A DNA stretch of 64,000 nt from Microcella alkalica. Lineage in GTDB: Bacteria; Actinomycetota; Actinomycetes; Actinomycetales; Microbacteriaceae. A program made the position numbers and the translations under genes. Position 1 is the stretch's first letter. Each line of letters starts with the position of its first letter. Below, in pieces: positions 26,545 to 29,329 of this stretch. The DNA lies in the NCBI RefSeq assembly GCF_014137945.1, contig NZ_JACGWX010000001.1:62001-126000 (forward strand). Direction: 5' to 3'. The notes beneath the pieces are model-generated. The model was not told the origin of the DNA. It did no database searches and saw only the letters and a program-made list of their open reading frames with translations.

Positions 26545-26937
26545 GTGTCCTTCGGCCTGACGTTCGAGAAGCTCCTGCTCATCGGACTCATCGCCGTGCT
26601 CCTCATCGGCCCTGACCGGCTTCCCGGATACGCGGCGCAGTTCGCGCGTTTCATACGGACGCTGCGGGACATGGCGAACGGCGCGAAGGAGCGCATGCGA
26701 GACGAGATGGGACCGGACTTCGACGACGTCGACTGGAAGAAGCTCGATCCTCGCCAGTACGACCCGCGCCGCATAATCCGCGAGGCTCTTTTGGAGGACG
26801 ATGCGCAGCCCGTCCGGCCCCGTGCGGGAAGCGCGGCCGCGACGGTCACGGCGCCGGTGCGGGAATCGGCGTACGCGCAGCGCCAGCGGCTCCAGAGGGA
26901 AGGCCGGCCGGCGCCGTTCGACGCCGAGGCGACATAG
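26545..26937 (+). CDS. tatB: Sec-independent translocase TatB-like protein
   Basis: The 130-residue product has the TatA/TatB layout. A short N-terminal helix (FEKLLLIGLIAVLLIGPDRLP) is followed by an amphipathic helix (YAAQFARFIRTLRDMANGAKERMRDEMG) and a charged disordered tail. The GPDRLP motif after the helix favours TatB over TatA. It would work with TatC in exporting folded proteins. A leaderless-type promoter precedes the GTG. It is convergent with the LysR gene. Confidence 0.85.
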   Translation: MSFGLTFEKLLLIGLIAVLLIGPDRLPGYAAQFARFIRTLRDMANGAKERMRDEMGPDFDDVDWKKLDPRQYDPRRIIREALLEDDAQPVRPRAGSAAATVTAPVRESAYAQRQRLQREGRPAPFDAEAT

Positions 26938-26956
26938 CCGCGACATCCCCCGGTGC

Positions 26957-27883
26957 TCAGCGCTCACCGACGGTGCGGTAGCCCGCGACGACGCGTTCGG
27001 CCTCGACCGCCAGCAGTTCGAGCACGCGGCGCACGCTCGGGCGCTCGGCGCGGTCGGCGCGCATGAGCGCCGAGATCTGCCGCTCGGCGGGGAGGCCCGT
27101 GATCGGCCGGGTGACGATGCCGTTGCCGTGGCTGCGCGTTGTGAAGCGCGGAAGGATCGCGATGCCGATGCCGGCCGCGACGAGCCGCTCGACGATGAGG
27201 TTGTCCATGACGCGCTGCACGATGCGCGGCTCGCGCCCGACGGTCGCCCCAAGGCGCTCGAGCACGCGATCGTACGGGTAGCCGACCGGCGCGCCGATCC
27301 AGTGCTCGTCGACGAGGTCGGTGCCCCGCACCACGGTCTTCTCCACGAGAGGGTGGCCGGCGGGCAGGGCGACGTCGAACGGCTCGATCATGAGCGGCAC
27401 GCACCGGAGCCCGTTCTCGTTCCAATGGGCGGGGATTCCCTGCGAGTCGGCGATGACGACGTCGTAGTCGGCCGTGAGCTGCGCGAAGTCGGGGAGGGGG
27501 AGATCATGGTCGGTCAGCACGATCTCGAGGCCCTCTTCGTCGCGCAGCGCGCGCAGCGCCCCGGGGAGGAGCATCTGCCCGGCCGTCGGGAAGGCGCTCA
27601 CGGACACCGAGCCTCGCGGACTCTGCTTGAACTCGAGCCAGAGCGCCTCGGCGGACTCGATCGCGACCGCGATCCGTCGAGCGGTGTCGGCGAGCGCGAG
27701 GCCCGCCCCGGTGAGCTCGAGGCCGCGCCCGCGCTTCTCGGTGAGAGCGACGCCCGCCTCCCGCTCGAGCAGCTTGAGCTGCTGCGAGACGGCACTCGGT
27801 GTGCGGTGCGTCGCTGCCGCAACGGCGGTGATGGACCCCCGATCGGCGAACTCGCGGAGCAGTTCGAGGCGGCGTACATCCAT
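26957..27883 (-). CDS. LysR-family transcriptional regulator
   Basis: The 308-residue protein has an N-terminal winged helix-turn-helix (LELLREFADRGSITAVAAATHRT, PSAVSQQLKLLEREAGVAL; residues 4-60). A periplasmic-binding-like effector domain follows with typical LysR spacing. Its ligand is unknown. LysR proteins usually control the divergent neighbour, which here is a 37-residue membrane peptide starting 101 bp away. A leaderless-type -10 box precedes the ATG. Confidence 0.92.
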   Translation of the reverse strand: MDVRRLELLREFADRGSITAVAAATHRTPSAVSQQLKLLEREAGVALTEKRGRGLELTGAGLALADTARRIAVAIESAEALWLEFKQSPRGSVSVSAFPTAGQMLLPGALRALRDEEGLEIVLTDHDLPLPDFAQLTADYDVVIADSQGIPAHWNENGLRCVPLMIEPFDVALPAGHPLVEKTVVRGTDLVDEHWIGAPVGYPYDRVLERLGATVGREPRIVQRVMDNLIVERLVAAGIGIAILPRFTTRSHGNGIVTRPITGLPAERQISALMRADRAERPSVRRVLELLAVEAERVVAGYRTVGER

Positions 27884-27889
27884 GAAGCC

Positions 27890-27895
27890 ATACTA
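27890..27895 (-). promoter_or_regulatory. -10 box of a leaderless promoter for the LysR gene
   Basis: On the minus strand TAGTAT is followed by six nucleotides and the ATG of the LysR regulator. No Shine-Dalgarno sequence is seen. Confidence 0.55.
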
Positions 27896-27983
27896 CATGG
27901 ACGCATAAGAAACATTCGATTGTGCTGAAACGTCACGTGAGGTCGAATAGGGGTGCTCAGGAAACGAAAAGGAGAACGCGGAC

Positions 27984-28097
27984 ATGCTCGCCGGATTGCT
28001 CATCATCGCTCTGCTCGGTATCGCCGGAGCGGTCTCGACCGCCGTGGTGACGGCGAAGGACGGCTACCGTCGCGTGCCGTCGCTTCCGCGCCCATAG
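27984..28097 (+). CDS. 37-residue single-helix membrane peptide divergent from LysR
   Basis: The ATG at 27984 follows an AAAAGGAG ribosome-binding site. The product starts MLAGLLIIALLGIAGAVSTA as one membrane helix and ends with KDGYRRVPSLPRP before TAG. Short proteins ending in a DGYRRVP-like tail are, as far as I recall, common in Microbacteriaceae, often beside LysR genes; function unknown. Its position suggests control by the adjacent LysR protein. It is below usual gene-calling limits, so it may be missed in annotations. Confidence 0.7.
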   Translation: MLAGLLIIALLGIAGAVSTAVVTAKDGYRRVPSLPRP

Positions 28098-28216
28098 CCG
28101 CCGACTCCGTCGACTGCCGTCGGATCCCGCGCTCACCATTCCAGGGGTGGGAGCGGGTTCCGGCGGCAGTCGTCGTTAACGCTCGGATGCTCGGCGCGGG
28201 CAGCCCGGAGCCCGAG

Positions 28217-29329
28217 TCAGCGCGGTGAGACGGTGAGCGGGCGCCCTGCAAGTCCGCGGCCCCGCGCTGCAATCGCACGGGCGAGATCTCTGATCGCCTC
28301 GGCCGCCGGGTCGCCGTCGACGAGCACGATCGGCTCGCCCTCGTCGCCGCCCTCCCGCAGCGCGATCGACAGCGGCACCCGCGCGAGCAACGGTACGCCG
28401 AGCCGCTCCGCCGTCTCGGCCCCGCCGCCGGAGCCGAACAGCTCGAGCACGCTTCCATCGGGCTGCGCGAGCCCCGCCATGTTCTCCACGACGCCGATGA
28501 CCGTCTGACCGGTCTGCCTCGCCACGAGCGCCGAGCGCTCGGCGACGTCTGCCGCCGCCTTCTGCGGCGTCGTCACCACGACGACTTCCGCGTGCGGCAG
28601 CAGCTGCCCCACCGAGATCGCGACATCCCCCGTGCCGGGGGGCATGTCGAGCACGAGCACGTCGAGGTCGCCGAAATACACGTCGGTGAGGAACTGCTGC
28701 ACCGTCCGGTGCAGCATCGGCCCGCGCCACGAGACGGCGGTGCGCTCGTCCACGAACATGCCGATCGAGATCACCGCGACGTCGTGCGCGCGCGGCGGCA
28801 TGATCGCCTCGCCGACGCGCGTCGGCTTCGCCCCGGCGATGCCGAGGAGGCCCGGGATCGAGAAGCCGAACACATCGGCGTCGACGAGGCCGACCCGCAG
28901 CCCCTGCTGCGCGAGCGCGACGGCGAGGTTGGCGGTGATGGTCGACTTGCCGACGCCGCCCTTGCCGCTTGTCACGGCGATGACCCTCGTGAGCGAATCG
29001 GGGGTGAACGGCATGGCGGGCCGGTCGCCGCGCAGGCGGGCGATGAGGGCATCCCGCACCGCCGGGGCCATCACGCCGACCGCGACGTCGACCGACGCGA
29101 CTCCCGGCACCGAGGATGCCGCGGCGCGGACATCGCGCTCGATGCGGTCGGCTGCGGGGCAGCCCACGATCGTGAGCTCGAGGTCGACCGTGACGCGGTC
29201 GCCCTGCACGCTCACGCGGGGCACCATGTCGAGCTCGGTGACGGGCCGGCGCAGCTCCGGGTCCATGACGCGGTCGAGTGCGCGACGCACGTCCTGCTCG
29301 GTCGGCGTCGGGGGAGCGGCGTCAGCCAC
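28217..29329 (-). CDS. mrp: Mrp/NBP35-family ATP-binding Fe-S carrier protein
   Basis: Mrp/ApbC proteins bind and transfer Fe-S clusters in the cytoplasm. The 370-residue protein has an N-terminal MIP18/DUF59 domain (residues 10-100) and a P-loop NTPase domain with the deviant Walker A SGKGGVGKST at 121-130 and VLDMPPGTGD. The usual CXXC near the C-terminal third is missing: the VVENMAG region reads AQPDGSVLELFGSGGG, a form I know from actinobacterial homologues. The GTG at 29329 overlaps the DUF1003 gene by eight bases. Confidence 0.9.
   Translation of the reverse strand: MADAAPPTPTEQDVRRALDRVMDPELRRPVTELDMVPRVSVQGDRVTVDLELTIVGCPAADRIERDVRAAASSVPGVASVDVAVGVMAPAVRDALIARLRGDRPAMPFTPDSLTRVIAVTSGKGGVGKSTITANLAVALAQQGLRVGLVDADVFGFSIPGLLGIAGAKPTRVGEAIMPPRAHDVAVISIGMFVDERTAVSWRGPMLHRTVQQFLTDVYFGDLDVLVLDMPPGTGDVAISVGQLLPHAEVVVVTTPQKAAADVAERSALVARQTGQTVIGVVENMAGLAQPDGSVLELFGSGGGAETAERLGVPLLARVPLSIALREGGDEGEPIVLVDGDPAAEAIRDLARAIAARGRGLAGRPLTVSPR

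Follow-up and report, generated by a model that had tools for sequence, protein, structure and literature searches.

The window (the whole stretch of 64,000 nucleotides of Microcella alkalica DNA that was analysed) contains a short open reading frame, running from ATG to TAG, that encodes the 37-residue peptide MLAGLLIIALLGIAGAVSTAVVTAKDGYRRVPSLPRP and is divergent from a gene for a LysR-family regulator (Table 1). Divergence from LysR and a strong ribosome-binding site were features of the original prediction for this frame and both are present, the latter as the 8-base element AAAAGGAG. The two genes are separated by 100 bp, within the range of about 70-270 bp of the LysR-class loci described below. 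The regulator is one of four LysR HTH matches above cut-off in its genome. Among solved LysR structures, it matches only 7w06 and two entries of the same sequence at E ≤ 1e-10 (E 1e-11), and this similarity is too distant to provide a ligand name.

The gene 3' of the peptide frame (28217-29329) lies on the minus strand and codes for an Mrp/ApbC-type ATPase. Thus, the small gene stands alone, and, since no codirectional gene follows in the neighbouring stretch, the likely product of the locus is the peptide. A hairpin without a clear T run sits between these convergent genes; its sequence is kept in two other loci (L101, L109). At 26545-26937, a frame that begins with GTG encodes a TatB-like protein (best NCBIfam match 94.3 bits; cut-off 96). 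A search of positions 26900-28300 against Rfam, by which only described RNAs are detectable, gives no match at the gathering threshold.

Table 1. Features of the peptide locus (positions in the window).
Feature	Position	Strand	Basis
LysR-family regulator, 308 residues	26957-27883	-	Pfam PF00126 (HTH_1) and PF03466 (LysR_substrate) above cut-off
GAAGCCATACTAC, one-mismatch copy of GTAG-N5-CTAC; probable LysR operator	27884-27896		Predicted from sequence
Promoter-like pair TTGTGC (27920-27925), 17 bases, TCGAAT (27943-27948); candidate promoter	27920-27948	+	Pattern match
Ribosome-binding site AAAAGGAG	27967-27974	+	9 bases before the peptide ATG
Single-pass membrane protein with basic DGYRRVP tail	27984-28097	+	Open reading frame, genus homologues, AlphaFold2 helix
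Very stable hairpin, possible terminator	28111-28172	+	Fold of 28090-28215: -76.8 kcal/mol, z -4.85

The first 24 residues of the peptide include no charged residue and are followed by the basic DGYRRVP tail that had been singled out initially. (Approximately 24 residues with few charges, then a [R/K]DGYRRxP-like basic tail, is the pattern by which members of the peptide family are recognised in what follows.) The predicted membrane helix is likewise borne out: the Kyte-Doolittle maximum, taken over 19 residues from residue 4, is 2.41, and an AlphaFold2 model computed from the single sequence has one helix, residues 2-29 (mean pLDDT 83.9, pTM 0.43). According to the positive-inside rule, the basic tail of such a protein is expected on the cytoplasmic side of the membrane; the N-terminus is therefore probably outside and the tail cytoplasmic.

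A search with the first profile matches all 26 genomes of the genus at E ≤ 0.1. Strong matches (E ≤ 6.5e-11), each accompanied by a divergent LysR gene, were obtained in 25 of these; the remaining genome (G688, completeness 71%) matches weakly (E 0.0013), and the short stretch examined there contains no LysR gene. Copies in the genus are 100%, 92%, 66%, 58% and 51% identical to the peptide over 35-36 residues, and an ATG start as well as a Shine-Dalgarno match five or more bases long are found in 25 of 25. Comparison of codons within the genus yields a mean pS of 0.35 and a mean pN of 0.16 (85 of 300 pairs, of 70-98.5% identity and not independent of each other). Among 29 aligned codons, invariant positions number 0 at third, 8 at second and 7 at first bases. 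The tail is better conserved than the helix. A column-reversed profile finds no match at E ≤ 1 in 1.89 Mb, as against 309 matches of the forward profile at E ≤ 1e-5; because that sequence was collected around family members and contains the same loci repeatedly, this control informs on composition only. The genus copies, the conserved frame and tail, the third-position change and the composition control rule out a chance open reading frame, and the frame is very probably a genuine gene for a tiny membrane protein. Lack of conservation of the frame or tail in close relatives, which would have told against the original prediction, was not observed. The window's genome has one copy by profile search; three single-peptide matches in the same genome (E 0.15-3.5) were rejected as further copies, being located inside open frames of 221-267 residues.

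A short frame beside a regulatory region might also be a leader peptide or uORF, with translation rather than the product being what matters. Conservation of the amino acid sequence and tail, accompanied by silent variation, makes this very unlikely. (In the window, a leader peptide or attenuator is rejected in any case: the next gene is on the minus strand and there is no codirectional target.)

Searching with the single peptide matches 261 of 398 genomes of the window's taxonomic family at E ≤ 1, with many matches weak and perhaps due to chance. A 35-row profile, scored on up to 50 candidates in each genome, matches at least 75 of 150 such genomes at E ≤ 1e-5, a count that may be low; the matches listed for those 150 genomes include 128 family copies, and all 128 were examined. 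Outside the taxonomic family, the peptide family is rare. At the level of the phylum, matches at E ≤ 0.001 were obtained in 7 of 296 genomes, four of these belonging to the window's taxonomic family. At the level of the order, 39 of 297 genomes match at E ≤ 0.01; 20 are in the window's family, and among the remaining 19 the E value exceeds 1e-4 in 15. A search at E ≤ 1e-4 for a longer-tailed form (DGRGHxP...LPSxPY), which comes from one other family, detects it in 17 genomes among 296 of the class. Plasmids yield no match to one peptide of the GlxA class (defined below).

In Pfam, the window peptide has no match at E ≤ 0.001, and the EamA model PF00892 is absent from the matches at E ≤ 0.1. 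For 35 members, Pfam gives chance-level matches only (best E 0.006) and NCBIfam gives four, also at chance level and each to 1 of the 35 (best E 0.04). MetS is an example of a known small transporter subunit; membership in a known family of this sort is rejected, no curated NCBIfam or Pfam model scoring above cut-off. No description of the peptide family was found in the open-licence literature. Small regulated membrane proteins are an already known kind, to which a peptide family linked with regulators of several types adds a new form.

The divergent upstream regulator of the 128 copies is LysR in 54, a GlxA-type protein in 37 and MocR in 22, and 15 copies have other neighbours, these proportions being in part a reflection of the census profile, which included members of all three classes. 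Thus 113 of 128 copies are linked to one of three kinds of regulator gene. Tail-bearing short frames do sit beside LysR genes, in the genus and in the 54 loci just mentioned, as the original prediction proposed; its single LysR pair is correct for the window and too narrow in scope for a family whose members accompany regulators of several kinds. The second class of regulators consists of DJ-1/PfpI and AraC-type HTH domains, and we take these to be GlxA-type proteins; MocR proteins combine GntR and aminotransferase domains. Regulators and EamA genes were assigned by profile or tblastn, since gene calls from codon composition are sometimes in the wrong frame. The MocR assignments are weak in L201 (44 bits) and L263 (22 bits), and for one of the 22 MocR copies the YczE neighbour gave the better score. 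Three sequences went into each of the MocR and YczE profiles. Among 35 named loci, LysR is divergent in 32, a GlxA-type gene in two (L053, L057), and one (L063, by clustering) is of the MocR-YczE kind.

In 17 of the 22 MocR-linked copies a further gene, codirectional with the peptide, lies between it and MocR; we take this gene to be YczE-like. Within the window's family the tiny membrane gene of these units comes after yczE (L149, L154, L176 and others), and in L299 and L304 it comes before the YczE-like gene. The one YczE-like protein tested has no Pfam match, so that its name is tentative and rests on the YczR (MocR)-YczE regulons presented in PMC4944035. These regulons resemble the MocR-linked loci in pairing a divergent MocR with a membrane gene; the available part of PMC4944035 makes no mention of the small gene, and the window copy differs in being LysR-linked and having no YczE neighbour.

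The spacing of helix and tail is nearly constant across the regulator classes (3 of 128 loci, for which no tail or start was found, are omitted from this comparison and that of starts). The regulator folds are unrelated. On the simplest view, different sensors govern a single type of membrane effector. Tight linkage to several regulator families and a conserved tail on the predicted cytoplasmic side might instead point to feedback from the peptide to its own regulator, which the tail could, for instance, tether at the membrane. A single binding mode for all of these regulators is unlikely, however, with folds that are unrelated and a tail that is much alike in all classes, and feedback of this kind seems improbable.

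TGCC stands directly before the start in 33 of 37 GlxA-class copies, and 2 have a five-base Shine-Dalgarno match, as compared with 31 of 52 in the LysR class and 17 of 21 in the MocR class; all of these counts are flattered, because the choice of start rewarded ATG, a Shine-Dalgarno match and a preceding TGCC. Judging by these sequences, the GlxA-class copies look leaderless. In L141, L145, L146, L155, L300-L303 and L311, TGCC directly adjoins the 5' side of ATG, mostly with no ribosome-binding site, and several of these copies have a TAG(A/C)(T/G)TT-like stretch just upstream.

The 15 copies with other neighbours are a mixed group (gene names were read by eye), and three are unclear. Six (L216, L223, L229, L236, L238, L256) face a CcdA-like cluster with thioredoxin-like or phosphatase genes, also named by eye; downstream of these six is an aminoacyl-tRNA-synthetase-like gene (4) or a small HTH gene (2). 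Some of the 15 are near large AAA/LuxR-type regulators, one precedes a regulator of AsnC type, and one (L251) follows a pyridoxamine-oxidase-like gene (Pfam PF12900).

The link to a regulator persists in part outside the taxonomic family. Among 16 class-level loci examined, a GlxA-type gene is adjacent and divergent in 9 (two of which, L306 and L309, are from the window's family), MocR in 3 (the YczE-like gene following the peptide in L299 and L304) and LysR in 1; L297 and L312 have no such regulator, and the only GlxA-type match of L310 is approximately 1.1 kb away. Elsewhere, L264 has a LysR gene and L138 a GlxA-type gene, and no such divergent regulator was found in L084, L088 and L265, which are outside the family. 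A long-tail copy in L137 is divergent from a BTAD-like protein, presumably of the SARP type, which scores just below the Pfam cut-off. In L297 and L298 a glutamate-cysteine-ligase-like gene (identified by eye) follows the peptide; L298 has a divergent MocR. L134 does not look like a family member.

Linkage of peptide and regulator is clade-specific. In 100 genomes of the taxonomic family, 62 proteins match the window LysR at E ≤ 1e-40, and all 62 were examined. For the 37 that are at least 50% identical to the window LysR, the peptide is present in 33 and an EamA gene in none. For the 25 that are 35-48% identical, the divergent gene is EamA in 22 (identified with six tblastn queries, of which Pfam confirms five), the peptide in 1 and an alcohol-dehydrogenase gene in 1, and 1 has neither. 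The GlxA-type proteins behave comparably: among 61 hits in 70 genomes, with the peptide scored at E ≤ 1e-3, it accompanies 18 of 27 with at least 57% identity and 0 of 34 with 52% identity or less. The peptide is dispensable, or too diverged to be seen, beside the 4 of 37 close LysR and 9 of 27 close GlxA-type proteins that have no detectable copy. In the four close LysR orthologues in question (L287, L288, L295, L319), a gene judged by eye to be aminotransferase-like lies upstream in the same orientation as LysR, perhaps reflecting a changed target.

A second shared feature is found in the intergenic DNA. GTAG-N5-CTAC is present in 50 of 54 LysR-class intergenic regions (32 exact, 18 with one mismatch), where 0.3 would be expected from shuffled sequence, and in 45 of these 50 it directly adjoins the LysR match. 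This element is probably the LysR operator. It also occurs, with up to one mismatch, in 5 of 22 EamA-paired relatives, for which a 90-base stretch was scanned as compared with 40 bases. The promoter-like pattern TTGT(C/G)C-N15-19-NNNAAT is found in 20 of the 54 regions (0.3 expected from shuffled sequence).

The conserved divergent pairing, the clade-confined linkage, the conserved intergenic element and the third-position change together argue that the peptide gene is the likely target of the divergent LysR. The proposal that it is the regulated target, made originally from the window sequence, is thus well supported by indirect evidence.

LysR-EamA pairs (PF00892) are the nearest comparison, with a related LysR and an identical divergent position of the partner, and with the putative operator present in part. 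The target here is, in contrast, a 37-residue protein with one helix rather than a transporter of the ten-helix type, and no sequence relation of the peptide to EamA transporters was found. The position of EamA and the company of YczE point, by analogy, to transport, which gives indirect backing to one of the two roles suggested at the outset; the other, membrane stress, finds no support. An obligate dedicated small subunit of an EamA-like or YczE-like transporter, induced by the regulator for movement of a metabolite, would account for occupation of the EamA position, for the operator-like element that five of the 22 EamA-paired relatives share, for the frequent YczE-like neighbour of MocR-linked copies and for the place of the peptide ahead of that gene in L299 and L304. 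On the other hand, no transporter is recognised in the divergent unit of LysR- or GlxA-linked copies, an EamA gene is divergent in none of the 37 close LysR loci, no small-subunit model matches above cut-off and no partner gene was found. We consider an obligate subunit unlikely.

Small single-pass membrane proteins such as SecE, TatA, DltX and others are described in PMC10903887, and SecE is conserved outside its membrane part. The peptide is like these in having fewer than 60 residues, one helix and (as in SecE) conservation outside the membrane, and unlike them in its linkage to several regulator families and lack of a family match. Its length and single hydrophobic helix also resemble type I toxins, Fst and similar (PMC10903887 has a general description), and the regulator might then be silencing a membrane-acting, toxin-like peptide. 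But conservation is higher in the tail, which is of cytoplasmic type, than in the helix, the linkage is to protein regulators in chromosomal clades across many genera, and Rfam, which covers described RNAs, detects no antitoxin RNA around the locus. A toxin is accordingly a poor candidate.

The reading that we favour, with a probability of about 0.5, is of a regulated small membrane effector or accessory that acts on a membrane partner, perhaps a transporter. The divergent LysR, probably sensing a small metabolite, would control transcription of the peptide gene; the helix would serve as a membrane anchor, and the tail, with its conserved [R/K]DGYRRxP sequence, would touch the partner and alter how active it is. 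With homologues controlled by LysR, GlxA-type and MocR regulators, different signals would lead to a similar output at the membrane. We infer translation, regulation by LysR, orientation, partner and effect. Counting against an effector are the close LysR and GlxA-type proteins that have no detectable peptide, the 15 of 128 copies that are not beside any of the three regulators, the similar situation of L084, L088 and L265 outside the family, and the genomes of the taxonomic family that have no copy at E ≤ 1e-5 (at most 75 of 150, among the matches listed). The regulators could be controlling only themselves, and the partner need not be a transporter.

More tentatively, and with the odds somewhat against it, these tiny membrane proteins can be thought of as a hitherto undescribed family and a shared output module, used in actinobacteria by one-component regulators of three or more unrelated families. 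Each regulator clade would have a peptide copy of its own, which in the LysR lineage occupies the place of the transporter gene of more distant relatives, and the conserved cytoplasmic tail would dock on one membrane partner common to all. For many bacterial regulators the target is not known. If the tiny genes are targets, three regulator families gain a concrete and testable output, and the contrast between peptide and transporter within one LysR lineage constitutes a natural experiment on the role of the peptide. If true, this would be a layer of membrane control that annotation may miss.
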